A stretch of DNA of 64,000 nucleotides, from the NCBI RefSeq assembly GCF_918741295.1, contig NZ_CAKKNB010000002.1, positions 682,001-746,000 of the forward strand. Direction: 5' to 3'. The notes below the pieces were generated by a model. It saw only the letters and a program-made list of their open reading frames with translations. It was not told the DNA's origin and did no database searches. Position 1 is the first letter of the stretch. Each line of letters begins with the position of its first letter. Below are positions 41,830-64,000 of this stretch, piece after piece. A program made the translations under genes and the position numbers. The DNA comes from Aquabacterium sp. CECT 9606 (GTDB lineage: Bacteria; Pseudomonadota; Gammaproteobacteria; Burkholderiales; Burkholderiaceae_C).

Positions 41830-41830
41830 C

Positions 41831-44064: not shown

Positions 44065-44092
44065 TCAGAAAAAATTCTGGGAGGAATTGAAC

Positions 44093-44911: not shown

Positions 44912-44941
44912 GTGCGATCTTGTTGTCCGCTGCTTGAAAAA

Positions 44942-44957: not shown

Positions 44958-44980
44958 CGAACCAACCCCCGAAATCGGCA

Positions 44981-44995: not shown

Positions 44996-45193
44996 GTATC
45001 GAACAATCCGAGTTGTTGAGAAATTAACAAGAAGTTGAATTTCACGCGTTCTTTGATGAGTTTGCCCTGGCGGGCAAGCCGCCCAACGACATCACCGCAC
45101 AAGACCTCACACGGGGGGGCTTCGCTTGCCAGTGGTCGCGACCAGGCGGTTGTTCACAACCTTTCCTATCCCTACCCTTTTGGAGAAACAAGC

Positions 45194-46006: not shown

Positions 46007-46011
46007 TCCTG

Positions 46012-46031
46012 ACAGGCCGTTTCAGGCCTGT
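46012..46031 (+). terminator. Short hairpin after PEP-CTERM paralogue B
   Basis: A 7-bp stem ACAGGCC/GGCCTGT with a 6-base loop five bases after the stop codon. It lacks a U-tract and may be a weak terminator or 3' stabiliser. Its GGCC-GTTTCA-GGCC core resembles the hairpin after the PEP-CTERM gene at 6487. Confidence 0.45.
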
Positions 46032-46127
46032 TGCTCCACTCGCATCCGTGACTCAACCTCCTGGGCCTTTTTGGCTCGGGGGGTTGCTTGAACACGCCCC
46101 CTCGCTGAAATTTTCAAGGATTCCACC

Positions 46128-47555: not shown

Positions 47556-47599
47556 TGACTGATTGGCCCTGTATGGGGGCCAATGCAAGCTTGAAGCCA

Positions 47600-47636
47600 A
47601 GCCCCGCAGTGCCTCACGGTCCTGCGGGGCTTTTTC
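47600..47636 (+). terminator. Rho-independent terminator
   Basis: A 10-bp stem (AGCCCCGCAG / CTGCGGGGCT) with a 12-base loop followed by TTTTC. It is a clear intrinsic terminator for the secreted-protein gene, and on the minus strand it can also help end the arsC transcript. A second inverted repeat (ATTGGCCC / GGGCCAAT) lies just upstream. Confidence 0.85.
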
Positions 47637-47643
47637 TTGGTGC

Positions 47644-48138
47644 TCAGTTCTGGCTGATGTCGGTCAGCGCGCGTTGCAACTCGTCATGGCTCATCGTGCC
47701 CAGTGGCAGCTGAAGCAGTTGCAGCATGCGGTAGCCAATGGCTTGTCGTGTCAGCTCAAAGGCCAGGCGCTTGCCCTCGTCGCCACCTGGCGCATTGGAT
47801 GGATCGGCGTAGCCCCAATGCACCTTGACCGGACTGCCTGGCCAGTAGGGGCAGGTTTCTGCCGCAGCGCTGTCGCACACGGTGATGACCACGTGCACCT
47901 CGGGGGCGCCATCGGCCACGAACTCGTCCCAGCTTTTGCTGCGGTAGCCGGTGGTGTCGATCCCGGCGTTGGTGAGCGCCTCTAGCGCAAAGGGATTGAG
48001 GTGGCCGCTGGGCGCGCTGCCCGCGCTGTAGGCGCGCACATCGCACCCCAGCTTTCGGGCCCAGTGGTTGAGCATGCCCTCGCTCAGCACGCTGCGGGCG
48101 GAGTTGTGGGTGCACAGGATCAGGACGTTGGTGGTCAT
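47644..48138 (-). CDS. arsC: ArsC-type arsenate reductase / low-molecular-weight phosphatase, copy 2
   Basis: 164 residues of the LMW-PTPase fold. P-loop CTHNSARS at residues 9-16 (CX5R), then AYSAGSAPSGHLNPFALEAL, the conserved SKSWDEF and the downstream redox/WPG region VITVCDSAAAETCPYWPGSP. Thioredoxin-coupled arsenate reductases of this class use the P-loop Cys plus later cysteines. It follows the other copy by seven bases in the same transcript and shares its whole architecture. Arsenate is the probable substrate, but low-molecular-weight tyrosine phosphatase activity is an alternative. Confidence 0.88.
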   Translation of the reverse strand: MTTNVLILCTHNSARSVLSEGMLNHWARKLGCDVRAYSAGSAPSGHLNPFALEALTNAGIDTTGYRSKSWDEFVADGAPEVHVVITVCDSAAAETCPYWPGSPVKVHWGYADPSNAPGGDEGKRLAFELTRQAIGYRMLQLLQLPLGTMSHDELQRALTDISQN

Positions 48139-48145
48139 GGTGGCC

Positions 48146-48640
48146 TCAGGCTTTGCCGATGGTGTTGAGGTCGCTTTGAATCGACAGTGAGTTCAAGCTC
48201 TTGTCGGGCAGCGACAGCATCAGCTCGATACGGCGCTTCAGGATGATGGCGACATCCATGAAGGCCGCGCGTTGCTTGTCCTCGGGGCCTTCCACGGCGG
48301 CGGGGTCGTAGACGCCCCAATGGGCCGTCATGGGTTGGCCGGGCCAGACGGGGCAGGCTTCTCCCGCTGCGTTGTCGCAGACCGTGAACACGAAGTCCAG
48401 CAAAGGTGCCCCAGCCAGGGCAAATTCATCCCAGTTTTTGCTTCGGTAGCCATCGGTGGGCAGCTTCCAGTGCTGCAGGGTTTGAAGTGCCAAAGGATGG
48501 ACTTCACCCTTGGGGTGGCTGCCGGCCGAGTAAGCCTTGAAGCGGCCCTGCCGCATGTCGTTGAGCAGGCCTTCTGCCAGGATGGACCGGGCAGAATTGC
48601 CCGTGCAGATGAAAAGAACGTTGTATGGCTTGTCGTTCAT
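48146..48640 (-). CDS. arsC: ArsC-type arsenate reductase / low-molecular-weight phosphatase, copy 1
   Basis: 164 residues, a paralogue of the gene downstream. P-loop CTGNSARSILAEGLL, AYSAGSHPKGEVHPLALQTL, SKNWDEF and FVFTVCDNAAGEACPVWPGQP. The His-to-Gly change in the P-loop (CTGNS against CTHNS) separates the two copies and could alter substrate preference or rate. It is the first gene of the pair, after an ArsR-like operator. No arsR, arsB or acr3 gene is in the window, so this is a fragment of an arsenic operon or a stand-alone pair. Confidence 0.88.
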   Translation of the reverse strand: MNDKPYNVLFICTGNSARSILAEGLLNDMRQGRFKAYSAGSHPKGEVHPLALQTLQHWKLPTDGYRSKNWDEFALAGAPLLDFVFTVCDNAAGEACPVWPGQPMTAHWGVYDPAAVEGPEDKQRAAFMDVAIILKRRIELMLSLPDKSLNSLSIQSDLNTIGKA

Positions 48641-48811: not shown

Positions 48812-50452
48812 ATGAAGTCCATTTTCCCTAACGTGCTCTTTCGTCTAAAGCCGCTTTGCGCTGCCTTGGCCTTGTGCTGTGTGCCTTTGGTTCAGGCCGC
48901 AGAGCCCGACGTTATCCAGGCCAGTCGTTTCGACATCCAGGAGTTCGAGATCGAGGGCAACAGCGTCTTGCCCGTCACCTTGGTTGAAAAGGCCGTTCAG
49001 CCATTTTTGGGGCCCGACAAAGCCCTGGCAGACATGGAAGGCGCCCGTGCTGCGCTGGAAAAGCTGTACCAGGACACCGGCTACATCTCCGTCTATGTGG
49101 AGGAGGCCAGTGGCCGCATCCCGGAAGACGGCATCGTGCGCTTGAGGGTGGTGGAAGGCACGATTGGCCGCGTCAAGGTCAGCGGATCGCGCTATCACAG
49201 CCAGGCTTACATCCGCGACAAGGTGCCTGAGATGGAGCCCGGCAAGGTGCCCAACTTCACGCTGGCCCAGGCGCAATTGGCTGATCTGAACCGCACTGAA
49301 GAGCGGCGTGTTCAACCCGTGGTCAAGCCGGGCCAGGTGCCCGAAACGGTGGACATCGAGTTGCAGGTGATCGACCAGTTGCCCATGCAGTTCAATGTGG
49401 AGTTGAACAACCGCCAAGTGCAGTTCACCGAGCCCTGGCGCTTGCAGGCCACGGCACGCTACAACAACCTGTGGCAGGCCGACCATTCGCTGTCGATCAC
49501 GGCCATCACCACCCCTCAGAACCTTGACCAAAGCAAGGTGTTGGCAACGTCGTACACCATCCCTTTGCAAGGCAGCGACGCCTGGCTGGGTTACGCCGTG
49601 CTGTCCGACAGCCTGGTCGAGCCGCTGGGCTCGGCCAATGTGGTGGGCAAGGGCTTTGTGCTGGGCGTGAAACGCATCTGGGGCTTGCCGGGCAGCAGCA
49701 CCTTGCAACACACACTGGCCTTCGGGGTCGATTACAAAGACTCGCAAGAGCGCATCAAGGCTGATGGCAGCGAGTTGTCCAGCCCATTGCGCTATGTGCC
49801 AATCAAGCTGGATTACAACGCCAACGTGCAAACCGAGGACACCAGCTCGACCTTGTCCTTGGGCGGGGTGTTTGCCTTGCGCGGTGTGGTGCGGCAGTCC
49901 CTGGATTGCGCCGACACGGGCGCGGTGGACCAGTTCGCCTGCAAGCGCGAAGGTGGGGATGGCAGCTTTGCGGCCATGACGATTGATGCGACCCACACTC
50001 GCCCCTTGTGGCGTGGGGCGCTGGAAGGCTGGCAGACCCGGTGGCGACTGGGTGCCCAGATCACCAGCCAGCCGCTGGTGGGTGGCGAGCAGTTCTCGAT
50101 TGGTGGCACGGACTCGGTGCGCGGCTACTACGAGGCCGAGGCCATTGGCGACGTGGGGGTGCACACGGGTGTTGAGTTGCGCACGCCCAATGTGGCCAAG
50201 CGAGAGGGGTATGGGCTCAGCGACCTGGACGAGTTGCAGGGCCTGGCTTTTGTGGAAGGGGGCTTGGTGCGCACCTTCAACCCGGGGTTTGCCAGGGCGC
50301 GAACCGGCTTGGCCTCGGCCGGGGTGGGCTTCAAGTTCAGGGCCCGCAAGGTTTTCAACGCCCAGGTGGACGTGGCCTGGCCGCTGCGCGCCACCGACGC
50401 CACGCAGAAGAACGATCCCCGTGTTCATGCCCGTTTGGGCCTCGATTTCTAA
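48812..50452 (+). CDS. ShlB/FhaC-type two-partner secretion transporter (TpsB)
   Basis: Outer-membrane Omp85-superfamily barrel that exports the adjacent exoprotein. 546 residues from the ATG at 48812: signal peptide (LCAALALCCVPLVQAAEP, cleavage near residue 32), POTRA domains (FDIQEFEIEGNSVLPVTLVEKAV, then YIRDKVPEMEPGKVPNFTLAQAQ) and a 16-strand-type barrel. The conserved loop-6 motif is GTDSVRGYYEAEAIGD. A Cys pair (SLDCADTG...QFACKREG) sits in a predicted loop. A GTG start 13 codons upstream is possible but lacks a better ribosome site. The exoprotein gene starts 47 bp downstream. Confidence 0.93.
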   Translation: MKSIFPNVLFRLKPLCAALALCCVPLVQAAEPDVIQASRFDIQEFEIEGNSVLPVTLVEKAVQPFLGPDKALADMEGARAALEKLYQDTGYISVYVEEASGRIPEDGIVRLRVVEGTIGRVKVSGSRYHSQAYIRDKVPEMEPGKVPNFTLAQAQLADLNRTEERRVQPVVKPGQVPETVDIELQVIDQLPMQFNVELNNRQVQFTEPWRLQATARYNNLWQADHSLSITAITTPQNLDQSKVLATSYTIPLQGSDAWLGYAVLSDSLVEPLGSANVVGKGFVLGVKRIWGLPGSSTLQHTLAFGVDYKDSQERIKADGSELSSPLRYVPIKLDYNANVQTEDTSSTLSLGGVFALRGVVRQSLDCADTGAVDQFACKREGGDGSFAAMTIDATHTRPLWRGALEGWQTRWRLGAQITSQPLVGGEQFSIGGTDSVRGYYEAEAIGDVGVHTGVELRTPNVAKREGYGLSDLDELQGLAFVEGGLVRTFNPGFARARTGLASAGVGFKFRARKVFNAQVDVAWPLRATDATQKNDPRVHARLGLDF

Positions 50453-50499
50453 GCCTCTCCGCAGTTTGCCCGTTGTTTGCCGTTGACCAGAGATTTGCC

Positions 50500-53400
50500 A
50501 TGACCACCTCACGCCGCCTTCGCCCTGGTACCCAGCCCGCCACCTTGCCTCGCCTGCGTCCGTTGGCCTGGGCCGCAGCGGTCTTGATGGGTTCGGCGTG
50601 GGGGGCTGCGCCCGGCGCACTGGACATCCCAGTGAAGTCCGATGTCTGGATCAAGCCTGGGCAAGGTGCCGGCAGCTATGTGGTGAACCAGGGCCTCAAT
50701 TCGGTGACGGCCACGGTACAGCAAACGAGCAGACGCGCCATCTACAACTGGAAGTCGTTCAACATCGGCGCCAATGCCACCGTCAACTTCGACATGCAGG
50801 GCGGGGCCGGCTCCAGCGCCTTGAACCGCATCCACGATCAGAACCCCAGCCAGATCTTCGGCAAGCTCAATGCCAATGGCGAGGTGCTGCTGATCAACCG
50901 CAACGGGATCATCTTTGGCAAGACGGCGCAGGTCAATGTGCAGGGCTTGATCGCATCGACGCTGGACATCAATGACGACGTGTTCCTGGGAGGACTGACG
51001 ACCATCGACACCACCAGCCCGACCTTTGAGTGGAAGGATGCCGAGGGCGTGGCCACCTATGCGCCAGAGGACAACTTTGTGAGGGTAGAAGCGGGTGCGG
51101 AGATCACCACGGCGTCCGGGGGGCGGGTGTTCCTGATGGCGCCCAAGGTTGAGAACGAGGGAGAGATCACCACGCCGGGTGGGCAGACCGTGCTGGCGGG
51201 GGGGGAGAAGGTCTGGCTGAAGTCGCCCGACCGTGACGCCATTTACGCATCGGAGGCTAATCCCAAGTTCACGGCCACGCGCGGCTTGTTGGTGGAAGTG
51301 TCTGGCGCGGGCAGTGCCAGCAACCTGGGCAAGATCCTGGCCGAGAAAGGCAACATCACTTTGGTGGGCTATGCCGTGCGCAATGCGGGCAAGTTGCAGG
51401 CCACTACCTCGGCCACGTCCAACGGGTCGGTGTTTCTGCAAGCACGTCGGGTGACCGAAACGCCCGCGGCCAACAAGCCGGTGATGGCAAACCAGGGTGG
51501 GCAATTGACCTTGGCGGAAGGCAGCCGCATCGAGATCACCCCCGACAACAGTGAGGCCTACGACAGCAACAGCACCTTCACCAAATCGCGCGTTCACCTG
51601 TCTGGCCAGACCATCTCTCTGGAGCAAGGGAGCGCCATCGTGGCCCAGGGAGGCATCGTCGACGTGCGTGCTGAGGACAGGCCAAGCTATTCCAACAGAT
51701 CCATCGCGTTCCAAGGCGCGTTGGGAGATGACGGGGCTGATCCGTTCATCGGCGCGGGGGCCGCTCCTTCAACCACCGCCCGCATCGTGTTGGGCAAGGA
51801 CGTGTTGATCGACGTGTCCGGCACCAAGGGTACCACCGTGGGCGTGGACCGCAACTTCGTGACCACCGAGTTGCTCGGTGCCACGGACCTGAAGGATGCA
51901 CCTCTGCAAAAGGGCGGAGCGCTCTACCCCGGACAGGCGCAAACCAAACTCACCTTCGACATTCGCGAATCGGCCGCTGTGATCGGCCACACCAAGGACG
52001 ATGTCGGCAGCAGTTACCTGCTTGGTGTGAAGAAGACGGCGGGCGAACGCCTGGCGGATGCGGGCAGCGTCATCCTGGCTTCGACGGGGGCTGTGGTCAC
52101 GCACCAGGACAGCTTGGTCAACGTGTCAGGTGGCCAGGTCAACTACACCAGTGCCGTGGTCAAGCCCACGCAGTTGCTGGGTGCTGATGGCAAGGTCTAC
52201 ACCGCCAACACGGCTTCCAAGGATGTGCTGATCACCAAGGTGCTCAGCAAGGCCGACGCCGACGATACGCGCTTTGGCACGGTCGTGGCCCCGGGCACCA
52301 GCTTGCAGGGGCGGCTTGAGGCTGGCTATGTCGAGGGTCGCGCCGGTGGTGAATTTGCCGTCTATGCGCCCACGGTCGTGGCCCTCGGGCACGTCAAGGC
52401 GGACACTGTGGCTGGTGAGCGCCAAATCCGTGGTCAGGACAAGCTGGCTACAGCATCGGCGATCAGGCTGGGCTCTCTCAAGATGGCGACCCTGGGTGTT
52501 GGCGATGCCATCTTGCGGGGCATGACCATCAGCAAGGATGCGCAGGCCTTGTCTCCTGACTTCTGGAAGGACGCGATAGAGGGCAGCATCACCGGTGGTA
52601 ATCGCGTGTCGGCCTCGGCGCTCAATGCCAGTGCCGCGGGTCTCATCGAAGTGGCCTCGGAGGGGAGCATCACCGTTGCCGATGGCACCGATTTGCATCT
52701 GGCCGATGCGGCCCAGTTGACCTTGCGTTCCAGGGCGGTGGACCTCGGCGATGGCATCGTCCTGGGGGGGCACATCACGGGGCATGGTGCCAATGTTCAC
52801 GTCAGCACGGCCGCCGCGGTGTCCGCGCTGGAGGGGGGCGTGATGCCCTTGGGCGGTATCACGCTCAAGGCGGGCAAAGCCATCGACGTTTCCGGCAACT
52901 TCGTCAACCGCCAGGTCGGTGGTGCGAGCCAGCAGGCCGCCTGGGCGGGCGGGAATGTCACGCTGGCCTCGTCGGGCGGTTTGAACCTCCAGGATGGCAG
53001 TGCCATCAACGTGTCGGGGGGGGCCACGGTGTCGTCCGCAGGTGCGATGACCGGCACCCGCGCGGGTGCCATCGTGCTGGAATCGCAGAATTCCGTTGGC
53101 CCGCAGCAGGGCGTGTTCAGTGATGTCCATCTTGGGGCTACCCTGCAGGGCCAGCAAATGGTCAACACGGCCAAGTCCTTGAACGATGCTGGCCGCAGCG
53201 ATGCGGGCAGCGGCAAGCTGCGCATCAAGGTGGGCGACATTCGGGTGATTGCGGCCGATGGTGGTCCTGCCACCATCCGTGGAGGTGTGAGCAAGGATGG
53301 CGTGACCGTCACCACGGACCTGTTCTCGCAGGGCGGCTTCCGGAACTTCGACCTGGAAGGTGTGAAGAATCTGGATGTGGCGGGCAACGCCGTCATTGAG

Positions 53401-56400
53401 CCGCGGGTCAGACAGTGGACGCCCAAGGCCAGCGCCGCTTGGGCCGCCACCGGCAGCTCCATGAACAACGTGGCGAGCTCGGTGGTAGATCCACAGGGTC
53501 AAATTCCGTCCGTCAACCTCAATTTGATGTCCAGGGGCTACCTGAACAACAATGCGACCGGCATGCAGAACAATGGCAGCTTGAGGTTGAACGCTGGCAG
53601 CCAGATCAAGCTTGGGCCCAAGAGCGTGGTCATGCTGACAGGGGGCAACGAGTTGCTCGTCAATGGCAGCGTGCATTCGGCGGGTGGAAAGATCGCCTTG
53701 GATCTGGCTGGACTGCCCAATGAGACCCTCACCAGACCCGTGGAATATGTCGGGCGGTATCAGGTCGGCAGCAAAGCCAGCCTTGATGTCTCGGGTGCGA
53801 CGGTGCTCAAGCCCTCCAGCAGCGGGTTGCGCCAAGGGGAGGTCCTGAACGGAGGCAGCATCGGCTTGGGCCTCACCACCGGCACGGGCAGTGTCGTGAT
53901 TGTGGCCGAGGGTGCGAAGCTCAAGGCCAATGGAGCGGTAGACGGCCTGGACGTGACATTGCCTTCGATGAGCGGGGGCACTGTCACCCAGCGGCAGATT
54001 GTGGCCAGCGATGGTGGCGCCATCAGCGTGACCGCCGGCATCGGCGGAGGCGTGTTGGCTGGCGATCTGCAAGCCAAGGCGGGTGGCGCCACTGCCATGG
54101 GCGGCGCCCTGTCGGTGAGCAGCACGGAGACCGTGCGCCTTCAAACCGGTCTGGTTGATGGCCAACAGTCGCCAGATTTGGGCGTCATCGCGGTGTCGGC
54201 CGACATGGTTAGGGAGGGTGGTTTTGCCGACCTCAAGCTTCAGGCGAAGGATCACATCGAACTGAAGGGCCGCGTTGATCTGACGATGCGCCGCAACCTG
54301 GTGCTTGATGCGCCAGTGCTGATGGCCAAGGATGCCGGTCAATCCTTGTTGAAGGCGGCCTCGGTGCTGTCCTGGACCAACACCAACGTCAGTAGCGGGC
54401 AGCCAGCGGCCGGTGAAGGATCGGGGGCCCAACTGGCGTTGCAGGGCTCCCTGCTGGACTTGTCGGGTCACGTGGCGACGGATGGTGTCAGTCAGCTAAT
54501 CTTGATAGGCGACGAAGAGGTCCGCTTGCGGCCATCGGGAGCTGGGTTGACGAATGGTGGACTGAGCACGGCTGCTGATGTGACGATCCTGACCCAGCAA
54601 GTGGCAGGCAGCACCGGCGTCAACTACACCTTGGATGCATCGGGCCATGACCTGACCATCGACGGTGGCCGTTCGACGGCCGCGGCGCCCTTGTCCGTGG
54701 GGGCGAGCCTGACGTTCAAGGCCGCCACCATCGATCAGAAAGGCACCATCCAGGCGCCCTTCGGCCAGATCACCTTGAGCGCCACTGAGCGTGTGACCTT
54801 GCACGAAGGCAGCGTGACCTCGGTGTCGGGCGATGGGATCACCGCACCCTACGGCAGCACCACGGGCGGCCAGGACACCTGGCAGGTCAACGGTCAGACC
54901 ATTGACCGCTTGCCCGAGAAAACCATCACCGTGGAGGCGCCCGGTCAGCTGGTGGAGTTGAAGGCGGGGTCCACGCTGGACCTCTCCGCCGGCGGCAAAG
55001 TTGTCGCGTGGGAGTTCGTGGCCGGGCCCAACGGCTCCAAGGATGTCTTCACGGGCAGCTTCGACACCACCGGCACCTTTGCCGTGGTGCCGACGGTCAA
55101 GGGCTACGCCCCGGTCGACGCCCAACTGCTGAGCGACACCGCCGGGGTCAACGATTTGCTGGGCTTCAACACCGCGCGCCAGATCACTTTTGGGGCTGGT
55201 GGGCCTTTGCCGGCGGGCACTTACACCGTCCTGCCCGCTCGCTACGCCTTGCTGCCGGGGGCCTTCCTGATCAAGCCGAGCAGCAAAGCCAACCTGGCCG
55301 TGGGGCAGAGCGTGGCGCAGCCCATCGGCTCGACCTTGGTGGGCGCGACACTGAGCACCCTGGGCGTCGGGGCCTCTTCAGCCCCGGCCACCACCTACGA
55401 GGTCATGTCCCAAGCCGTGGCCAGACGTTCCAGCGAGGTGCGCGAAGCCAGTGCCGACACCTTCTTCGCGGGCAAGGCGGCGGCCGCTGACCAGGCCGCA
55501 CCGCGGGGCACGGCCCAAGGCGGCACGCTCAACCTGGCAGCCACGCGCTTGAGCCTGGAGGGCCGCGCGCTCTTCAAGAGCGGTGGGGAGTTGAACATTG
55601 CCTCGGACAAGATTCGCGTGGTGAGCGATGGCGCAGCGGCCAGCGCGGCCACCGCCGATCACCCCGATGCGCTGATCCTGACTGCGGATCAACTCAATGC
55701 CACCGGTGTCGGTTCGCTGATGCTGGGCGGCACGCGCCAAGGGCAGAGCACCACGGTGGCCAGCGGCGATGCCTCGGGCGGGGCGCGCCAGACCTTGGTG
55801 TCCGCCTCGGACGTGGTCATTGACCAGAACGTGAGTTTGCATGCGGGCGCGGACATCATCCTGGCCGCCAACGGCAGGGTTTTGGTGGCGGATGGCGCCC
55901 AGATCGAAGCCAAGGGTGCTGGGACTTCGGAAGCCCTGGCCTTTGATGGCGACGGTGCCTTGGTTCGCGTCAGCGCGGACAGTTCCGCCATCAGCGCACG
56001 CACCAACACCCTCCGCGAAAAAGGCGAGGTGGTGCTGGGTGAGGGCGCCGTCCTGACAGGTGGGGCCGTGACCGTGGAGGCGACCCAACGCACAGAGGTG
56101 GCCGGTACCGCCAAGCTCGCGGGTGACAGCGTGACCTTGGGGGCCGGCCGCATGGCGGTGGGCGGTGGCGCGGCGCAGTCGCTGGCCGATGCTGGCGATA
56201 CCAGCACATTGCTGTTGAACCCGACTTTGGCCGCACAGTTGGCCCAGGCCAAAGCGTTGACCTTGCGCAGCTTCGATGGCATCGACTTCATCGGGCAGGC
56301 TCAGTTGGGAAGTGCGAATCAAAGCCGTCTGACCCTGGATTCGGCCGCCTTGCGCGTGCTGGATGGCCCCAGTGGTCAGCCTTCGGTGGCACATGTCCAG

Positions 56401-59400
56401 GCCGGCAGTGTCAGTTGGACCAATACCAGCGGCAGCAACGCAGTCGCGGCAGATGCGGCCACCGGGGGCAGCCGCTTGACACTGTCAGCCACTGGCGCCG
56501 GTGGTGCCGATGGCCATGTGCGTTTGGGCAGCGGTACGCTGGCCATGTCGGGCGCTGAAACCAACCGCATTGAAGCGGCAGGCAGCGTCGTGCTGCAAAG
56601 CCGGCGCCAGGCGGTGACCAACGCGCAAGATCAGGTGGTCTCCACCACGCCGGTGGTCACGCAGCTCAGCAGCACGGGTAACCTCACCTTGCAGGCGAAG
56701 TCCATCACCACGCGCACGGGTGACAACGGTGAGATCGCGGCCCAGGGGGCTTTGCGGATTGAGCGACCTGGTGATGCCGCGGGCAAGCTGGCGGCCACTG
56801 CTGGCTCGGGAGGGCGACTGACCCTCAAAGGCCAAAGCATTGAGCAAGCGGGCACGGTCGAGCTGTCATCAGGGGCCTTGCGTTTGCAAGCCGGTGGCGC
56901 CGACGGCCAAGATGCCATCACCTTTGGAGCTGGATCCATCACCAACCTGGCGGGGCGCAGCAAGGTGATGGACGGCATCACGGTGGCCACGCCCGGCGGG
57001 GACTTGAGCGCCACGGCGGCCGCGGGGCACATCCGCTTGAACGAAGGCAGCGTGATCGATGTCTCTGCAGGGGGTGGTGCTGCAGGCATCAGCGCCGGCA
57101 GCGTTAACCTGAGCGCGCCCACAGGACAGGTCAGCCTGGACGGAACCATCAAGGCCTTGGCAGGGGTGGGGCAAACCGGTGGCAGCTTGTCGATTGACAG
57201 CCTGGAGGCCGTGGACCTGGCCAAACTGGCCAGTAGCATCGCGGCGCAGCAAACAGCCCAGCAGCGCAATTTCAGCCAGGCCTTGAGCGTGCGGCAGCGC
57301 GCTGGCGACATGACGGTGGGCTCGGGCACCACCCTCCAGGCGGCGGACATCAAACTGGTCAGCGATGGCGGTGCCTTGACCATCAACGGGCAATTGGACG
57401 CCAGTGGCGCCCAGGCCGGATCGATCAAGCTGGCGGCCAAGGGCGACGTGATCCTGGCCGGCAGCGAGGGCCAACTGGCTGCCATCAAGGCGAACGCCAC
57501 GCAGGCTGGCGCCAAAGGTGGCCAGCTGACCATTCACAGCGATGGTGGGTCGATTGGCCTTCGTGAGGACGCCGGGGTGAACCTGAGCGGCGGTGCAGCG
57601 GGCCAGGGTGGTCAGTTGGATTTGCGGGCCGTGCGCACAGCGGGCAACGAGGTGCCCATCGAAGCCATCGCGAGCCAGATGACGGGTGTTGACCGCATCA
57701 CGGTGGAAGGCGTCAAGGTCTACCAGCAAAGCACGATCAACCAGACCTTCATCGACAAGGTCAAAGCCGACAACACCTTGTTCATCGGTGCCACGGGCCA
57801 GAACGCCAGCAAGATCGTGGACCGTCTGGCTTCGGTCAACCATGACCTGGCCAGCAAGCTCGCGGTGCGATCAGGCGCCGAGGTGCGCAGCACGGGCGAC
57901 ATGACCGTTTCGGCCGATTGGAATCTGCTGAGCTTCAATGCCAATGGCACCGTCAAGCCCACTGGCAACGGCCAACCCATGAACCTGACCTTGCGGGCGC
58001 AGGGTGATCTGAAGGTTCAGGCCAGCTTGAGCGATGGCTTCCGCTCATCGGGCACCAGTGCCACGGCGGCGGCCAAGGTGGCCCCTTTGGGGTTGATCAC
58101 CCCTGGCGATGGCGCCGACCTGACCTTGGTGGCTGGTGCGGACTTGGGTTCATCCGACGTCACCGCCACCCAGCCTGTTTTGACGGGGGACGATGCCACC
58201 AATGCCAAGGGCAACGTCATCATCGGTGCGACCAACAAGGACGTGCTGGTTCGCACCACCACCGGGGACATCGTGGTGGCCGCGAGCCAGAAGGTGCAAC
58301 TGCTCAACGACCGGGCGGTGGTCTACACCACGGGCCGTGTGGCTACGGACGCCGAAGTGGGCAGCCCGGTCGCGCCGCCGGTGAGTTCGCTCAACAATGG
58401 CTTGTTCATCGGTGAAGGCTCAGGCTTCAACCTGGTGCGCCAGGGCCTGTACCTGACGGATGCCGGCAGCGTGCAGCTCACGGCGGGCAGCGATGTTGAA
58501 TCGTTGGCGACGGGCGCGGCCCAATACGGCACCGAATGGTGGTGGCGCGCCGGTGGCACTGTGGACGAGAAATTCGACTTGACCTGGTTCAGCCGCTACG
58601 ACAAGTTCCAGCAAGGCATCGCCAGCTTCGGCGGCGGTGATGTTCGTGTGCAGGCGGGTGGCAGTGTCAGGAACATCGGGGTGTCGTCGGCCAGCAGCGG
58701 CTACGTGAGCGCTGCAACTGGCACCACCACGCAGTTTGCAGGTGGCGCGGTGGCGATCAAGGCCGCCGACGACGTCGAAGGCGTGTTCATCCACGCCGGT
58801 GGGGCCAGCCTGAACGTGGCCGCAGGTCGGGACATCAAAGCCAGCCCGACGCGGGCGGCACCACAAATCCACTATCAGGACACCTCGGCCAGCATCTGGT
58901 CTCGTCAGATGTTGAAGCTGGGCGCGATCACCGAGGTGGGCTCCGTGAACGCGGCCAGGCAGAACAAGTCCAAGGCGAGCTCTCAAGTGGTGGGCCTGGC
59001 GCCGAATGCCAGCATGGCCGTGCTGTCTTCTGGCGGAGATGTCTTGTTGAGTGCTGAACTGCCGGCCAACGACGAGGTAATGCAGAGCACGGACCTTGGC
59101 GTGGCGCACCTGTTCCCCAAGGTCACTCAGGTGGCCGCGCCCGAGGGCGCCTTGCAAGTGGCCACGTTGAACCAGGCCAGCGGCACGGGCGCCGACTTGA
59201 GTCTGTTGGCGCAGGGGGCGCTTCAGGTAGACAAGCTGCGGGTCAAGGTCCTTGATTCTGGCGCTGCGCCGATCGTCCTCCTTGTGCGAAACGTAAAAGA
59301 TGGCAATGGCCCTTCCGATCTGACCTCGGTGTTCCTGCAGAAGGCATTCGAGCTCGGGTCGAGAGAGCCGGTAAGGATCCTGTCCGAGACCGGGTCCGTG

Positions 59401-60855
59401 TCCTTGAACGAGGCGCTGGTGAGCAACCCGGTCCGGGTGGTGGCCGCCAAAGACATCACCGCAGGGTCGGTGGTCTTGCAGCATCAATCGGATCTGGAGC
59501 TGTCATTGATCCAGGCCGGACGTGATGTCAACCTCATCACCAGCGTGACGGGCTTGAAGACGCATGGCCCAGGTGACGTGGTCGTGGCCGCAGGCCGGAA
59601 CCTGAACGTGCTCACGGTGCCGGGCATCACCGCCCTGGGCAACCGCGAGAACGATTTGCTGCCCGAAGGCAGTGCCAACCTCACCTTGCTCGCCGGGGTG
59701 GACTTGGCCTCCGCGCAGAACTACGGCAAGGCCGCGCAAGACCACTACGAATTGCTGGGCGTGGCCGGCATCGGCAAGCTGTCGGGAACGGCTGAAGAGC
59801 GGCGAACGCAGGCCTTGGCCATGGCAGCGGAGAAGGGCCTGGACGGTGCCGAACTGCGGGCCTTTGTCCAACACCGGCTGACGCTGGCAGGGGCACCGAC
59901 ACTGGCCGAGGCCTTGGTGGCTTTCGATGCCATGCCAGTGGAGCAGAAGCTGCTGTTCATCAACCGCAAGCTGACAACCGACGTGCGCCAAGCGGGGCGC
60001 ACCGCTGCGGTGGCGGCCACGGCATCGGCCAAGGAATTGGCCTATGCGCCGGCCTACCAGGCCATCGAGGCCGTGTTCCCGGGGTTGACCGATGGCAAGG
60101 CCACGGCCAATCTGATGATGGGCGCCAGTCAGGTCAAGACCTTGCAGAACAGCACGGTCACGGTGATGACGCCCGGCGGCGGCGTCAACGTCGGGCAATT
60201 GAGCGGCAGCGACTTGAGCGCAGCGGCTGAACTGGGCATCGTCACCACCTCGGGCGGCAACATCACGACCTTGGCGCGTGACAACATCGACATCAATCAA
60301 TCCCGCATCTTCACGGTGGCCAAGGGCGATTTGTTGCTGTGGTCTTCCAAGGGCAACATTGACGCGGGTCGTGGTGCCAAGACCGTGACGGGGGCACCGC
60401 CGCCGGTCTTCCGGCTGGAAGGCGGGAACTTCGTGGTGGACACCTCTGGATCGTTCTCGGGCAGTGGCATTGCCGCATTGGACAAAGACAGCGCGCTTGA
60501 TCTGTTTGCACCGCGCGGTGAGATCAACGCGGGCGATGCCGGCATCAAGGCCAATGGCGCTTTGACCCTCGGCGCCATCCGCGTTGTCGGTGCCGACAAC
60601 ATTGCCGCAGGCGGCCCGTCCATCGGCGTGCCTGCAGCCCCTCCCGTCGGCAACGCCGCCACCAACGTTGGCTCCCTGGGTCAATCCGCCACCGCGGCTG
60701 GCAACGACGCTGGCGAAAACAGCGCCTCCAAACGACGCAACCGACGCCAGGTTCTGCTGGAGTTGTTGGGTTTCGGTGGCGAACTACCCGATCCAGCGGC
60801 CGGTTGTCGTGATGGTGTCACGCAAAAGGGCGATTGTGCTGACTCTGCGAAGTGA
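50500..60855 (+). CDS. Giant filamentous-haemagglutinin-like exoprotein (TpsA)
   Basis: 3451 residues, exported by the TpsB protein just upstream and probably forming a long beta-helix on the cell surface. The N-terminus has a signal peptide (RLRPLAWAAAVLMGSAWGAAP) and a TPS domain at about 45-165: NWKSFNIGANATVNFDMQ, SSALNRIHDQNPSQIFGKL, and LLINRNGIIFGKTAQVNVQG. The body is repetitive, rich in Gly/Ala/Ser/Thr, with no Cys. Around residues 2650-2790 a different, Trp-rich section (QYGTEWWWRAGGTVDEKFDL) resembles DUF3739 haemagglutinin modules, and about 3074-3205 is predicted helical. The only two cysteines are 3436 and 3446 at the extreme C-terminus. Adhesin or biofilm role inferred. Confidence 0.92.
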   Translation: MTTSRRLRPGTQPATLPRLRPLAWAAAVLMGSAWGAAPGALDIPVKSDVWIKPGQGAGSYVVNQGLNSVTATVQQTSRRAIYNWKSFNIGANATVNFDMQGGAGSSALNRIHDQNPSQIFGKLNANGEVLLINRNGIIFGKTAQVNVQGLIASTLDINDDVFLGGLTTIDTTSPTFEWKDAEGVATYAPEDNFVRVEAGAEITTASGGRVFLMAPKVENEGEITTPGGQTVLAGGEKVWLKSPDRDAIYASEANPKFTATRGLLVEVSGAGSASNLGKILAEKGNITLVGYAVRNAGKLQATTSATSNGSVFLQARRVTETPAANKPVMANQGGQLTLAEGSRIEITPDNSEAYDSNSTFTKSRVHLSGQTISLEQGSAIVAQGGIVDVRAEDRPSYSNRSIAFQGALGDDGADPFIGAGAAPSTTARIVLGKDVLIDVSGTKGTTVGVDRNFVTTELLGATDLKDAPLQKGGALYPGQAQTKLTFDIRESAAVIGHTKDDVGSSYLLGVKKTAGERLADAGSVILASTGAVVTHQDSLVNVSGGQVNYTSAVVKPTQLLGADGKVYTANTASKDVLITKVLSKADADDTRFGTVVAPGTSLQGRLEAGYVEGRAGGEFAVYAPTVVALGHVKADTVAGERQIRGQDKLATASAIRLGSLKMATLGVGDAILRGMTISKDAQALSPDFWKDAIEGSITGGNRVSASALNASAAGLIEVASEGSITVADGTDLHLADAAQLTLRSRAVDLGDGIVLGGHITGHGANVHVSTAAAVSALEGGVMPLGGITLKAGKAIDVSGNFVNRQVGGASQQAAWAGGNVTLASSGGLNLQDGSAINVSGGATVSSAGAMTGTRAGAIVLESQNSVGPQQGVFSDVHLGATLQGQQMVNTAKSLNDAGRSDAGSGKLRIKVGDIRVIAADGGPATIRGGVSKDGVTVTTDLFSQGGFRNFDLEGVKNLDVAGNAVIEPRVRQWTPKASAAWAATGSSMNNVASSVVDPQGQIPSVNLNLMSRGYLNNNATGMQNNGSLRLNAGSQIKLGPKSVVMLTGGNELLVNGSVHSAGGKIALDLAGLPNETLTRPVEYVGRYQVGSKASLDVSGATVLKPSSSGLRQGEVLNGGSIGLGLTTGTGSVVIVAEGAKLKANGAVDGLDVTLPSMSGGTVTQRQIVASDGGAISVTAGIGGGVLAGDLQAKAGGATAMGGALSVSSTETVRLQTGLVDGQQSPDLGVIAVSADMVREGGFADLKLQAKDHIELKGRVDLTMRRNLVLDAPVLMAKDAGQSLLKAASVLSWTNTNVSSGQPAAGEGSGAQLALQGSLLDLSGHVATDGVSQLILIGDEEVRLRPSGAGLTNGGLSTAADVTILTQQVAGSTGVNYTLDASGHDLTIDGGRSTAAAPLSVGASLTFKAATIDQKGTIQAPFGQITLSATERVTLHEGSVTSVSGDGITAPYGSTTGGQDTWQVNGQTIDRLPEKTITVEAPGQLVELKAGSTLDLSAGGKVVAWEFVAGPNGSKDVFTGSFDTTGTFAVVPTVKGYAPVDAQLLSDTAGVNDLLGFNTARQITFGAGGPLPAGTYTVLPARYALLPGAFLIKPSSKANLAVGQSVAQPIGSTLVGATLSTLGVGASSAPATTYEVMSQAVARRSSEVREASADTFFAGKAAAADQAAPRGTAQGGTLNLAATRLSLEGRALFKSGGELNIASDKIRVVSDGAAASAATADHPDALILTADQLNATGVGSLMLGGTRQGQSTTVASGDASGGARQTLVSASDVVIDQNVSLHAGADIILAANGRVLVADGAQIEAKGAGTSEALAFDGDGALVRVSADSSAISARTNTLREKGEVVLGEGAVLTGGAVTVEATQRTEVAGTAKLAGDSVTLGAGRMAVGGGAAQSLADAGDTSTLLLNPTLAAQLAQAKALTLRSFDGIDFIGQAQLGSANQSRLTLDSAALRVLDGPSGQPSVAHVQAGSVSWTNTSGSNAVAADAATGGSRLTLSATGAGGADGHVRLGSGTLAMSGAETNRIEAAGSVVLQSRRQAVTNAQDQVVSTTPVVTQLSSTGNLTLQAKSITTRTGDNGEIAAQGALRIERPGDAAGKLAATAGSGGRLTLKGQSIEQAGTVELSSGALRLQAGGADGQDAITFGAGSITNLAGRSKVMDGITVATPGGDLSATAAAGHIRLNEGSVIDVSAGGGAAGISAGSVNLSAPTGQVSLDGTIKALAGVGQTGGSLSIDSLEAVDLAKLASSIAAQQTAQQRNFSQALSVRQRAGDMTVGSGTTLQAADIKLVSDGGALTINGQLDASGAQAGSIKLAAKGDVILAGSEGQLAAIKANATQAGAKGGQLTIHSDGGSIGLREDAGVNLSGGAAGQGGQLDLRAVRTAGNEVPIEAIASQMTGVDRITVEGVKVYQQSTINQTFIDKVKADNTLFIGATGQNASKIVDRLASVNHDLASKLAVRSGAEVRSTGDMTVSADWNLLSFNANGTVKPTGNGQPMNLTLRAQGDLKVQASLSDGFRSSGTSATAAAKVAPLGLITPGDGADLTLVAGADLGSSDVTATQPVLTGDDATNAKGNVIIGATNKDVLVRTTTGDIVVAASQKVQLLNDRAVVYTTGRVATDAEVGSPVAPPVSSLNNGLFIGEGSGFNLVRQGLYLTDAGSVQLTAGSDVESLATGAAQYGTEWWWRAGGTVDEKFDLTWFSRYDKFQQGIASFGGGDVRVQAGGSVRNIGVSSASSGYVSAATGTTTQFAGGAVAIKAADDVEGVFIHAGGASLNVAAGRDIKASPTRAAPQIHYQDTSASIWSRQMLKLGAITEVGSVNAARQNKSKASSQVVGLAPNASMAVLSSGGDVLLSAELPANDEVMQSTDLGVAHLFPKVTQVAAPEGALQVATLNQASGTGADLSLLAQGALQVDKLRVKVLDSGAAPIVLLVRNVKDGNGPSDLTSVFLQKAFELGSREPVRILSETGSVSLNEALVSNPVRVVAAKDITAGSVVLQHQSDLELSLIQAGRDVNLITSVTGLKTHGPGDVVVAAGRNLNVLTVPGITALGNRENDLLPEGSANLTLLAGVDLASAQNYGKAAQDHYELLGVAGIGKLSGTAEERRTQALAMAAEKGLDGAELRAFVQHRLTLAGAPTLAEALVAFDAMPVEQKLLFINRKLTTDVRQAGRTAAVAATASAKELAYAPAYQAIEAVFPGLTDGKATANLMMGASQVKTLQNSTVTVMTPGGGVNVGQLSGSDLSAAAELGIVTTSGGNITTLARDNIDINQSRIFTVAKGDLLLWSSKGNIDAGRGAKTVTGAPPPVFRLEGGNFVVDTSGSFSGSGIAALDKDSALDLFAPRGEINAGDAGIKANGALTLGAIRVVGADNIAAGGPSIGVPAAPPVGNAATNVGSLGQSATAAGNDAGENSASKRRNRRQVLLELLGFGGELPDPAAGCRDGVTQKGDCADSAK

Positions 60856-60868
60856 GCCAATCGGCTCA
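60853..60868. promoter_or_regulatory. Second TGAGCC-N4-GGCTCA element
   Basis: TGAGCC-AATC-GGCTCA overlaps the exoprotein stop codon and lies 39 bp before the ExbB-fusion ATG. Same arms and 4-bp spacing as the palindrome at 48746. Candidate operator, or an RNA hairpin separating the two genes. Confidence 0.5.
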
Positions 60869-60907
60869 TCGCCGACTTCTCTCCTTTTGATTTGATGATT
60901 GATTGAA

Positions 60908-62584
60908 ATGACCATGCGCAAATTGACGATGGCCCTGGCTTGGGCGGCCCTGGCGCCAGCCTTGTTACCGCAAACTGCCCACGCCTGGTGGAACCCTGAC
61001 TGGACCCAACGCACGCGCGTCACCCTCAACACCACTGCGCAGGGCGTGGAGACCAAGGAGGCCGTGACGGCCACGGTGGTGCCGGTGCGCCTGCATTCTG
61101 GCAACTTCGACTTCCTGGCGGCCAAGCCCGATGGCAGCGACCTGCGCGTGGTGGCGGGCGACGACAAGACACCTTTGAAGTTCTGGGTGGAGCGCTTCGA
61201 CGGCACCAACGAGCTGGCCTTGGTCTGGGTGCAAGTGCCCTCCATCCTGCCGGGCACCGACAAGAACGAGATTCACGTCTATGCGGGCAACGAGAAAGCC
61301 GCCGCCGAATCCAGTGGTGCCGATTTGCTGGACGCATCGACCGCCCTGGCGGTGCACTTCTCTGAGAAAGATGGTCCCGCCGCTTCCGCTGACCGCGATC
61401 CCAATGGCTTGATGGCTTCGGCGGCTCGCCTGAGCGGCAAGGCCCTGCTGTGGCCCGCCTCAGACAAGACCCGCGCGCCAGCGGCCGGTCCCTGGAGCGT
61501 GAGCCTGTGGGTCAAGGCCTCCAATGCCAATGGTGTGCTGTTCCAGCAGGGCCCCGTCAAGGTGGCGCTGGCCAATGGGCAGGTGCAGGCCTCGGTCGGC
61601 AATGTGCAGGCATCCGGCGGCCAAGTGCCGGTGGACGCCTGGGCCCACATTGCCGCCACCTTGGGCGGTGGCAAGTGGACCTTGTACGTCAATGGCGCCC
61701 AGGCGGCCCAAGTTGATGCCGCAGCAAGCATGGCCGCCATCGAAGGCGATGTGGCTGTGGGCGCTGGTTTGCAGGGCTTGGTGGACGAGGTACAGGTGCA
61801 CACCACCGTGCGCAGCGCTGAATGGGTCAAGCTGGCCCATGCCGCCCAAAGCGCCGATGCAAAGTTGGTCGCCACCAAAACTGAGACCGCCGAAACCGCG
61901 GAATCTGGAGAGGGTGGAGAGCCCAGCCACATGGGCATCCTGGTGAGCAACCTCACCGTCGATGCCTGGGTGGTGATTGCCATCCTGGGCATCATGATGG
62001 TGTTGGCGTTCTGGGTGATGATCAGCAAATCCATGTTGGTGGGACGCACCGACAAAGGCAACCGCGCCTTCTTGCTGAAGTTCCGCGAAGCCAAGGATGT
62101 GATGGCAGTGCACGGCGCCTACCAGCACTCGTCGCTGGCCCGCTTGTACGCTGCTGGCTTGCATGAGTTGAAGAAGCGCGATGTGGGCCAGGCCGAGGCC
62201 AAGCCCTTGTCTGGTGCCTCGATCGATGCGGTGAAGGCCGCCATCGATGCCGACCTGGTCCGCGAAAGCCAGGAGTTGAACTCGGGCATCGTGCTGCTGA
62301 CCATCGCCATCGCCGGTGGGCCCTTCCTGGGTCTGCTGGGCACCGTGGTGGGCGTGATGATCACCTTCGCGGCCATCGCGGCGGCGGGCGATGTGAACGT
62401 CAACGCGATTGCCCCAGGCATCGCGTCGGCCTTGCTGGCCACCGTGGCGGGCCTGGCCGTGGCCATCCCGGCCTTGTTCGGCTACAACTACCTGGCCTCG
62501 CGCATCAAGAACATCTCATCCGACATGCAGATCTTCATCGATGAGTTCGTGACCCGCGTGGCCGAAGTGCACGGAGCGCGCTGA
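60908..62584 (+). CDS. DUF2341/LamG-like/ExbB fusion proton-channel protein
   Basis: 558 residues. Signal peptide ending LLPQTAHAWW (about 26), then a periplasmic DUF2341-like domain (WWNPDWTQRTRVTLNT, HVYAGNEKA), a concanavalin/LamG-like domain (about 195-310: WSVSLWVKASNANGVLFQQG, WAHIAATLGGGKWTLYVNGAQ, GLVDEVQVHTTVRSA), and a C-terminal MotA/TolQ/ExbB channel. Membrane segments: about 347-372, 458-487 (VLLTIAIAGGPFLGLLGTVVGVMITF) and 502-530. It forms a proton channel with the two ExbD proteins downstream. It starts 52 bp after the exoprotein gene, and its stop overlaps the next ATG. The sugar-binding-like ectodomain on an ExbB protein is unusual. Confidence 0.9.
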   Translation: MTMRKLTMALAWAALAPALLPQTAHAWWNPDWTQRTRVTLNTTAQGVETKEAVTATVVPVRLHSGNFDFLAAKPDGSDLRVVAGDDKTPLKFWVERFDGTNELALVWVQVPSILPGTDKNEIHVYAGNEKAAAESSGADLLDASTALAVHFSEKDGPAASADRDPNGLMASAARLSGKALLWPASDKTRAPAAGPWSVSLWVKASNANGVLFQQGPVKVALANGQVQASVGNVQASGGQVPVDAWAHIAATLGGGKWTLYVNGAQAAQVDAAASMAAIEGDVAVGAGLQGLVDEVQVHTTVRSAEWVKLAHAAQSADAKLVATKTETAETAESGEGGEPSHMGILVSNLTVDAWVVIAILGIMMVLAFWVMISKSMLVGRTDKGNRAFLLKFREAKDVMAVHGAYQHSSLARLYAAGLHELKKRDVGQAEAKPLSGASIDAVKAAIDADLVRESQELNSGIVLLTIAIAGGPFLGLLGTVVGVMITFAAIAAAGDVNVNAIAPGIASALLATVAGLAVAIPALFGYNYLASRIKNISSDMQIFIDEFVTRVAEVHGAR

Positions 62585-62991
62585 TGTCTGCTGACATCAA
62601 GGGCGATCTGCAGGCCTACGACGACATCAACATCACACCGATGTTGGACTTGGCGTATGTGCTGTTGGTCACCTTCATCATCATGACCACGGCCTCGGTG
62701 CAAGGCGTGAAGGTGAAGTCGCCCGTCACGCAGGCCGCCAACAACCTGGCCAAGCCGCAAACACGCGGGATCACCATCACCACCGATGGGCAGGTCTACC
62801 TGGACGCGTATCCCGTGACCATGGACCAGCTGCGCAGCAGTCTGGCCCAGTACAAGGCAGCCAATCCCAACCTGCCCGTCGTGTTGAAGGCCGACGCCTC
62901 GGCCCAGTACGAGAAGGTGATGGACGTGTTGAACGTGGCCAAAAGCCTGGACATCACCGAAATCGGCTTGGTCACCAAGCGCGCGCAGTAA
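62584..62991 (+). CDS. exbD: ExbD/TolR-like protein, copy 1
   Basis: 135 residues: a short cytoplasmic N-terminus, the signature DDINITPMLDLAYVLLVTFIIMTTASVQ with the conserved membrane Asp that carries protons, and a periplasmic domain (ITITTDGQVYLDAYPVTMDQLRS, VVLKADASAQYEKVMDVLNVAKS). It pairs with the ExbB-like channel to form a motor. It starts in the stop codon of the preceding gene. Close paralogue of the next gene, so the motor may be a heteromer. Confidence 0.94.
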   Translation: MSADIKGDLQAYDDINITPMLDLAYVLLVTFIIMTTASVQGVKVKSPVTQAANNLAKPQTRGITITTDGQVYLDAYPVTMDQLRSSLAQYKAANPNLPVVLKADASAQYEKVMDVLNVAKSLDITEIGLVTKRAQ

Positions 62992-63003
62992 GGAGCGCAG
63001 GCG

Positions 63004-63405
63004 ATGAAAGTTCAAGACGAAACCAAACCTTACGACACGATCAACGTCACGCCCATGCTGGACCTGGCGTATGTGCTGCTGGTGGTGTTCATCCTGATGA
63101 CCACGGCGTCCGTGCAAGGTTTGAACGTGAGCATGCCCAAGCCCAGCAACAAGCCCGTCACTGAACAGCACGACCTGCGGATCGTGCAAGTGCTGGCGGA
63201 TGGTGGCGTCACGGTCAATGGCGTGGGCGTGAGCCTGTCCGAGCTGGAAGGCCAGTTGGGCCAGGCCAAGGCGGCCGACCCCAAGATGACGGTGGCCATC
63301 AAAGGTGACGCCAAGGCGCACTACGACAAGGTGGTGGCGGTGATCGACCTGTGCAACAAGCTGGAGGTCAACATGGCGTTGGTGACCACCCGCATCGGCA
63401 CGTGA
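63004..63405 (+). CDS. exbD: ExbD/TolR-like protein, copy 2
   Basis: 133 residues. TINVTPMLDLAYVLLVVFILMTTASVQ with the same conserved Asp, then a periplasmic domain (IVQVLADGGVTVNGVGVSLSELEGQ, AIKGDAKAHYDKVVAVIDLCNKLEV). It lies 12 bp after copy 1. One ExbB-like plus two ExbD-like subunits recalls the Myxococcus gliding motor AglR/AglQ/AglS, an analogy from known systems and not evidence of the same function. Confidence 0.94.
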   Translation: MKVQDETKPYDTINVTPMLDLAYVLLVVFILMTTASVQGLNVSMPKPSNKPVTEQHDLRIVQVLADGGVTVNGVGVSLSELEGQLGQAKAADPKMTVAIKGDAKAHYDKVVAVIDLCNKLEVNMALVTTRIGT

Positions 63406-63416
63406 GTGAGGCCAGC

Positions 63417-64000
63417 ATGAACGAGTCCACACTCAAAAGTCCGCATTTCGAGGCGGCCGCCACGGTGTCGTCCACCCGAGACTGGCGAACCATCGTCATC
63501 GGGCTGGCAGTGCTGTTGGCCTTGGCCGCCTTGGTGTGGTGGGGCATGGGCCAGGCGGGGTCTGGCCATGGAGCCCCCAAGCGGCAGACCGCCAAAGTGG
63601 CCCTGATGCCCGACACCCCACCACCGCCCCCCAAGGAAGAGCCCAAGAAAGAGCCACCCAAAGAAGAGCCCAAGGAGACCGTGCAGCTCAACCGGCCACA
63701 GCCCACGCCCACCCCGGCGCCACCTGGGCAGCAGCTCAAGGCCGAAGGTGCGGCAGGCGAGGGCGGCAGTCCGTTCGCGGCCGGCAGTGTGAGCAAAGAC
63801 TACACGGAGGGCAAACCGGGTGGCGGCGGCGCCAGCGCGCCCTCGGCACCAGTGGACCGCCAGAAGTTCCGCTTGTTTGCCGATGGCTTGACACGCCGGC
63901 TGCAGTCGGAGTTGGAGCGGCATCTGGGCGGCTCGGAGTTGCCAAGAATGAAGCTCTCCCTCCAGCTCTGGCTGGACGCTTCTGGCGAGATTTCCCGCTA
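63417..64000 (+). CDS. TonB-like protein (3' end outside window)
   Basis: Starts ATG at 63417, 11 bp after the second exbD, and runs open to the window end (194 codons visible). One N-terminal membrane segment (TIVIGLAVLLALAALVWWGMG), then a Pro/Lys/Glu-rich linker (PDTPPPPPKEEPKKEPPK) as in TonB, a Gly-rich stretch and the start of a C-terminal domain (LFADGLTRRLQSELERHLG, LSLQLWLDASGEIS) typical of TonB-like energy transducers. It completes an ExbB-ExbD-ExbD-TonB motor behind the two-partner secretion pair. Whether the C-terminal domain is complete cannot be seen. Confidence 0.88.
   Translation, partial: MNESTLKSPHFEAAATVSSTRDWRTIVIGLAVLLALAALVWWGMGQAGSGHGAPKRQTAKVALMPDTPPPPPKEEPKKEPPKEEPKETVQLNRPQPTPTPAPPGQQLKAEGAAGEGGSPFAAGSVSKDYTEGKPGGGGASAPSAPVDRQKFRLFADGLTRRLQSELERHLGGSELPRMKLSLQLWLDASGEISR

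Follow-up and report, generated by a model that had tools for sequence, protein, structure and literature searches.

In Pseudomonas aeruginosa, the PUMA3 (sigma-VreI) locus combines the two-partner secretion (TPS) pair PdtA-PdtB with ExbB2-ExbD2-TonB4, the porin PA0696, PA0697, the YbjN protein PA0698 and the PpiC protein PA0699 (PMC2729926, PMC7035377). The locus was mapped in 2009 by Llamas et al., who also found homologues of PA0696 associated with TPS and ExbBD in six further genomes or species (PMC2729926), and in 2020 its Ton system was called uncharacterised (PMC7035377). Genes of the same kinds lie at the end of the 64,000-nucleotide stretch of Aquabacterium sp. CECT 9606 DNA analysed here (contig NZ_CAKKNB010000002.1, positions 682,001 to 746,000 of the forward strand; below, the window), namely the transporter gene tpsB, the exoprotein gene tpsA, a fusion gene of exbB with DUF2341 and LamG domains, two exbD genes and a tonB-like gene, followed beyond the window by genes for a Porin_5 and a coiled-coil protein. 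The original prediction, made from the letters of the window, regarded them as an undescribed machine, which is too strong a wording for a system with a counterpart known in P. aeruginosa since the mapping of 2009, even if the motor of the latter was still called uncharacterised afterwards. As judged from the comparison of genomes, the coupling of the motor to one class of TPS, that with a DUF3739 exoprotein, is real, and stronger than had been claimed.

The assignment of the window locus to the PUMA3 type is made by synteny: a TPS pair, ExbBD, TonB, a PA0696-type porin and a PA0697-type protein are all present, and a copy on a Klebsiella plasmid stands nearly in the published P. aeruginosa order. 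The window copy differs from PUMA3 in that tpsA is placed between tpsB and exbB, exbD is doubled, and no VreAIR, YbjN or PpiC gene was seen alongside. Among the open reading frames (ORFs) scanned at 37129-48640, there was no vreA/vreI/vreR-type regulator, i.e., no ECF sigma factor, FecR or VreA protein; they include a secretin with an STN domain and a protein with a LuxR-type helix-turn-helix that also matches sigma region 4. As to the P. aeruginosa locus, DUF3739 and DUF2341 are expected there from synteny rather than read from its sequence.

Classical TPS systems (FhaB/FhaC, HMW1) resemble the present one in the TPS domain, the POTRA_2 and ShlB domains of the transporter and the large exoprotein that is predicted to end in a beta-solenoid, whereas the dedicated motor and porin, the DUF3739 end domain and a TpsB N-terminus that by eye is mostly short (with exceptions) set this class apart. 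With the Ton and Tol motors (ExbBD-TonB, TolQRA), the locus shares the ExbB/TolQ core fold, the transmembrane Asp and a TonB-like protein with a Pro-rich linker, but its ExbB carries a large DUF2341-LamG domain, and the partners are Porin_5 and the TPS pair, with no recurring TonB-dependent receptor. A TonB-linked protein needed for outer-membrane secretion is known from the Oar-dependent secretion of PopC in Myxococcus; Oar, however, is a TonB-dependent transporter, and no TPS proteins figure in the passages on it (PMC6434023). In 2025, DUF2341 was named as an appendage of unknown function on MotA/ExbB homologues, in passages that draw no link to TPS (PMC12505986), and no mention of DUF3739 was found in the literature searched. 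The loci as such are already in print in the PUMA3 papers; what seems to be new, as far as our search reached, is the near-obligate and class-specific linkage, full-length Porin_5 as its fixed part, and the conserved motif in the flexible tail of TpsA.

Linkage of the motor genes to DUF3739 exoproteins

Among 397 genomes of the phylum, DUF3739 was found in 19, which span 17 genera, and the DUF2341-LamG-ExbB fusion was confined to exactly these 19 (the search for the fusion gave 20 matches, from which G132 was taken out, as it aligns only at 335-555 and belongs to a plain ExbB frame of 259 aa). The TPS domain occurs in 159 of the 397, these 19 included, and 140 TPS genomes possess neither DUF3739 nor the fusion. 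At the order level (300 genomes), DUF3739 and the fusion were each present in 32 genomes, 31 being common to both; here, at E 1e-20, 173 genomes were among the matches listed, and the 32 are those with an alignment reaching the N-terminal part, the remaining matches being plain ExbB/TolQ. In one of the two discordant genomes, G506, the contig breaks off 398 bp away from the DUF3739 gene, just where exbB would be expected, and no fusion turned up in the rest of the genome by a profile search; in the other, G632, the fusion occurs without DUF3739, contains a stop or frame break and comes from an assembly of about 410 contigs. The window's own genome belongs to both samples, and the presence data share ancestry, so that Fisher values based on them overstate the independent evidence, the 17 genera being the fairer count.

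The distances between genes were counted in the 19 genomes, leaving out the four rows of G132 and eight weak POTRA_2 rows (frames of at least 777 aa). Eighteen of the 22 fusion genes have a TpsB gene at a distance of no more than 15 kb, as compared with none of the 113 other MotA/ExbB/TolQ genes; one of the 18 belongs to the second motor set of G380, which lies near the TpsB of the first set, and the fusion of G230 is cut by the contig start. Far from occurring mostly without a TPS neighbour, the fusion is thus found beside TPS genes and co-occurs with DUF3739 nearly perfectly, and the coupling proposed in the original prediction is upheld for DUF3739 exoproteins, though not for TPS in general, considering the 140 other TPS genomes. 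A further set of loci was taken from named genomes by a scan with the TpsA C-terminus and comprises the best 80 of at least 419 relatives, so that it leans towards the window; eight of them, with less than 2.2 kb after tpsA, were left out, and misbinning is possible for L125, L143 and L168, contigs that carry the label Verrucomicrobia or Methylacidiphilales. The fusion is present in the locus itself in 54 of the 72 remaining loci and, full-length, elsewhere in the genome for 17 of the other 18, which gives 71 of 72.

By gene content, we recognise a near-obligate module, which is composed of TpsA (with DUF3739), TpsB, the ExbB fusion, ExbD, TonB and Porin_5, usually accompanied by a coiled-coil protein. 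It is, on the same comparison, the property of a class of TPS (DUF3739) and not of TPS in general, and its parts are shown to stay associated as a unit in different genera and classes, and also on plasmids. Full-length Porin_5 was found in all 19 DUF3739 genomes, but in none of 40 TPS-only genomes hand-picked from the 140, five of which have relatives of it; these are encoded by frames of 465-483 aa, in which profile positions 1-153, corresponding to the N-terminal extension, are missing. Clustering of the neighbours (1118 ORFs from 27 stitched regions and the 80 loci, frames of at least 2000 aa being excluded) gave nine families present in at least six loci: the fusion (74), exbD (70), tonB (69), porin (61), coil (51), tpsB (33), short tpsA frames (17), an ankyrin protein (12) and a FecR-type anti-sigma factor (6); no transporter, TonB-dependent receptor, Glt-like or type II secretion family was among them. 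The order of the genes varies. Of the 19 genomes, 12 have tpsB directly in front of exbB, tpsA being placed ahead of the two, behind them or at another site, and the arrangement of the window, with tpsA between the two, is seen in G000, G019, G306 and G380; in the named loci, exbB usually follows tpsA, and 34 of 53 same-strand gaps do not exceed 300 bp. One motor accompanies three tpsA genes in G174 and in G325 and two in G230. The DUF2341-LamG-ExbB fusion and full-length Porin_5 gain in this way a common setting, and the neighbours of PdtAB can be assigned to one module.

The gene run and its proteins

All genes of the run are on the plus strand; for the six genes from tpsB to tonB, the order, starts, stops and gaps and the length of the exoprotein had been read correctly from the window. 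The outer-membrane transporter gene tpsB (48812-50452, 546 aa, POTRA_2 and a ShlB barrel) matches PF08479 and PF03865 above cut-off and adjoins tpsA (50500-60855, 3451 aa), whose N-terminal TPS domain is recognised by PF05860 (84.3 bits) and NCBIfam TIGR01901 (75.6 bits), i.e., both genes expected of type Vb secretion, a TPS-domain TpsA and an adjoining POTRA/ShlB-FhaC TpsB, are present. In the numbering of the 3460-aa frame, the TPS domain occupies residues 71-329 and DUF3739, near the C-terminus, residues 3285-3388. The DUF3739 part is a predicted beta-solenoid with fold matches to HpmA and other beta-helices, which speak for a shared fold only, and the tail that follows it is predicted to be disordered. 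This tail bears a motif conserved in TpsA relatives, typically VxVLGFG (7 of 103 tails, lacking the anchor used for cutting, were left out of the comparison), the form in the window being LLELLGFG (60754-60777, plus strand).

HMW1-type exoproteins are anchored by a disulphide-forming Cys pair at the C-terminus of TpsA. The window TpsA is among those that carry such a pair: for the TpsA C-termini of L036-L075 and L096-L175, a pair within the last 70 residues is found in 4 of 25 and 16 of 78 relatives; in those looked at, it follows the LGFG-type motif and comes just ahead of the stop. Being confined to a minority of the relatives, the pair lends no support to an HMW1-type anchor as a common feature, and it may be relevant in copies such as the window's. 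As for TpsB, only about ten residues by eye separate its likely signal peptide from the first POTRA strand. The short N-terminus, with no H1-like stretch, was considered as a signature of the motor and dropped, as the motor-linked TpsB of G380 has a long one; of 20 non-motor TpsBs compared by eye, 18 have a longer N-terminus and two, both from G396, a short one.

The exbB fusion (60908-62584, 558 aa) codes for a signal peptide followed by DUF2341, Laminin_G_3 and a TolQ/ExbB-type MotA_ExbB core, which places the DUF2341 and LamG jelly-roll domains presumably in the periplasm. It is the longest (561 aa as a frame) of the six MotA_ExbB matches in the genome, the other five having 217-297 aa. The LamG part has fold matches to carbohydrate-binding and other jelly-roll domains, again indicating a shared fold only. 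For the ExbB core and both ExbDs, the TolQ/TolR models outscore the ExbB/ExbD ones, all scores being below the curated cut-offs, and the top VIA matches of the core are TolQ chains. The core has the Thr residues that line the pore in ExbB/TolQ proteins. The transmembrane Asp of ExbD/TolR is present in the TolR/ExbD-family products of exbD1 (62584-62991) and exbD2 (63004-63405; such a second gene occurs in only some relatives), both of which match PF02472 and carry the pattern TPMLD, found in 90 of 90 ExbDs.

The tonB-like gene (63417-64148; L008:417-1148) is cut by the window end at 64000. Its product has no Pfam match at E 0.05, but 7 of 10 orthologues pass the TonB_2 cut-off, and these, together with a transmembrane segment, a Pro-rich stretch and the position of the gene, point to a TonB protein. 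Two further co-directional genes follow on the same contig beyond the window. The first (64188-65876) encodes the Porin_5 protein (PF16930, E 1.8e-143), for which Porin_5 is the sole Pfam family; by Pfam, this outer-membrane partner has no receptor plug and is not a plugged TonB-dependent receptor, and a search for solved structures similar in sequence gave none at E 1. Its N-terminal extension, with the letters VRVPYVP, contains a strand-like motif that is conserved and marks a possible place for a TonB box. The second (65904-66545) encodes the coiled-coil protein. The six genes of the original prediction stand as noted, while the run as a whole extends further than was recognised.

The intergenic gaps from tpsB to tonB are 47, 52, -1, 12 and 11 bp. 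Because a consensus scan detected no terminator-like site in the gaps between the genes of the run, tpsB to the coiled-coil gene are likely to form one transcript. The group is bounded on both sides by opposite-strand genes: upstream of tpsB by two adjacent genes of the LMW-phosphatase family on the minus strand (47644-48138 and 48146-48640) and downstream of the coiled-coil gene by a glycosyltransferase gene (recognised by eye). The window has no Rfam match at gathering scores.

Possible roles of the motor

We suppose, with a probability of about 0.55, that the motor energises a late outer-membrane step in the export or display of TpsA, i.e., that this is two-partner secretion with a dedicated Ton/Tol-type motor. 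Proton flow through ExbB/ExbD would move TonB, which would span the periplasm and engage the outer-membrane side, its target being TpsB, the N-terminal extension of Porin_5, the flexible tail of TpsA, or a complex in which these are combined. The motor would then drive the late export, anchoring or display of TpsA, for which other TpsA classes manage without energy, and the LamG domain of ExbB might bind glycan (peptidoglycan) or the passing exoprotein. A role in export is supported by peptidyl-prolyl isomerase (PPIase) and YbjN genes, which form part of the run on plasmids of Klebsiella and Methylosinus as well as in P. aeruginosa; the runs of an Aquabacterium plasmid and of the window are without them. 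A narrower version, in which type V secretion would be proton-powered in that TonB pulls the TpsA tail itself, we consider rather improbable. In that case, the C-terminal domain of TonB could catch the VxVLGFG strand of the nearly exported tail in the periplasm by beta-strand pairing, and the pull, for which the extension of Porin_5 would offer another hold, would serve to complete the fibre, to keep it under tension or to release it.

Several observations weigh against an export role. A review of TPS states that type V translocation is powered by no energy source and asks what pulls the exoprotein (PMC5422565), and P. aeruginosa with forced VreI expression killed zebrafish as before when tpsA, tpsB, tonB or PA0696 was singly disrupted by an insertion (PMC2729926). 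The link between the motor and TpsA is, at the level of genomes, one of gene co-occurrence, and mirror-tree partial correlations of TonB are about equal with several partners, singling out no client (for the control pair, ExbB core and ExbD, the values were 0.43 and 0.50 once the column numbers had been made equal, and 0.56 before). Bradyrhizobium sp. Ai1a-2 (G670) has a DUF3739 TpsA and, on a profile re-check, plain ExbBs only; G378 and G380 possess second fusion-ExbB/ExbD/TonB sets with no adjacent tpsB or porin of their own; and the module of G094, G248 and G339 was seen to have no coiled-coil gene next to it (nor was there one on the cut contig of G230). The short TpsB N-terminus is no clean marker either, being absent from G380, which has the motor, and present in two G396 proteins without it. 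The original prediction had further reasoned that the motor must act after export, TPS export itself needing no energy; this is not established, as the no-energy rule derives from other classes of TpsA.

The haem receptor HxuC is TonB-dependent. That it works with the TPS pair HxuB/HxuA (PMC4873976) provides a precedent in print for capture and uptake, where TpsA would bind a nutrient or polymer and TonB would energise import through Porin_5. Porin_5 is indeed a fixed, full-length part of the module with a motif at the possible TonB-box site, the TonB-porin partial correlation is 0.32 in 58 regions, and the P. aeruginosa locus is induced by phosphate starvation (PMC7035377). However, the protein is Porin_5 alone by Pfam, with no receptor plug, there is no transporter family among those in at least six loci, and the PPIase genes of the PUMA3-type plasmid loci point to export; we regard uptake as unlikely. 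Still less probable appears a Tol-like support, with the motor tethering the outer membrane and pulling it inward via Porin_5 against the load of a giant adhesin and not acting on TpsA. The closeness of the ExbB core and ExbDs to TolQ/TolR models, if below cut-offs, the TolQ chains on top of the VIA matches and the coiled-coil partner gene in 51 loci agree with it, but the 140 TPS genomes do without the motor, many of their TPS frames also exceeding 3000 aa, and the genomes in question possess several other MotA/ExbB/TolQ genes.

Surface sensing, by which TonB and a TonB-like VreA would read the engagement of TpsA and signal to a sigma/anti-sigma pair, is improbable to a higher degree: STN plus TonB_2 proteins do occur near extra tpsA genes, and FecR-type proteins account for eight ORFs of the neighbour clusters and are found in plasmid loci, but the upstream ORFs scanned at 37129-48640 include no FecR, VreA or ECF sigma factor, and VreA was reported to be dispensable for VreI activation (PMC7035377). 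The least credible is a gliding motor of the AglRQS kind dragging the adhesin along the cell. The analogy, drawn in the original prediction, of one TolQ-like with two TolR-like proteins holds for the window copy, whose TonB-like protein also has a weak GltJ match (22.8 bits versus a cut-off of 450). As a family trait it is to be rejected, since only a minority, 2 of the 19 genomes and 12 of 46 scorable named loci, have two consecutive exbD genes; most members have one ExbD, the motor is also present on Klebsiella plasmids, and no Glt-like family is among those in at least six loci.

The comparison of several hundred genomes suggests that a secretion route thought to be energy-free has a version with its own engine. 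A TPS class that is almost never without its own motor makes the question of what pulls the exoprotein testable by gene deletion.

Plasmid copies and surroundings

Four of the 11 plasmid records with a match were examined. The Klebsiella quasipneumoniae module (L177) lies on an IncFIB plasmid predicted to be conjugative, with arsenic-resistance genes nearby; the K. pneumoniae copy (L176) is no more than 5.4 kb away from where its record begins. Both are accompanied by sigma/anti-sigma, YbjN and PPIase genes. The Aquabacterium plasmid, from the non-pathogenic Aquabacterium olei NBRC 110486, has its module genes in the order of the window. STN plus TonB_2 (VreA-like) proteins were noticed near tpsA genes at L061:11581-12294, L039:18103-18837 and L042:3511-4209, which suggests that some tpsA genes have a surface-signalling set of their own.

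Upstream in the window, at 34704-44046, there are genes resembling a type II secretion system (T2SSF, T2SSE, a weak T2SSM_b, secretin, N_methyl) and a LuxR-type regulator, followed at 44087-46006 by two PEP-CTERM proteins. On the opposite strand after the module, at L008:17036-19794, exosortase and exopolysaccharide synthesis genes were recognised by eye, matching the PEP-CTERM genes. In P. aeruginosa, a type II secretion system (Hxc) is also located beside the Pdt locus. Type II secretion genes (34-41 kb of the window; G380) were considered as a part of the module and rejected, being absent among the families in at least six loci. As for the second motor sets, that of G378 (L050:2467-11142) directly follows V-type ATPase genes, and that of G380 (L052:7819-16894) is surrounded by the genes of a type II secretion operon (gspC-D-E-F, dsbC); adjoining it on the other strand is an ORF with a TPS domain that is partial. 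One more TPS domain, at G390:C1:290030-290788, belongs, in a genome of 1.9 Mb, to an open frame that reaches 29,206 residues and by far exceeds the others listed.

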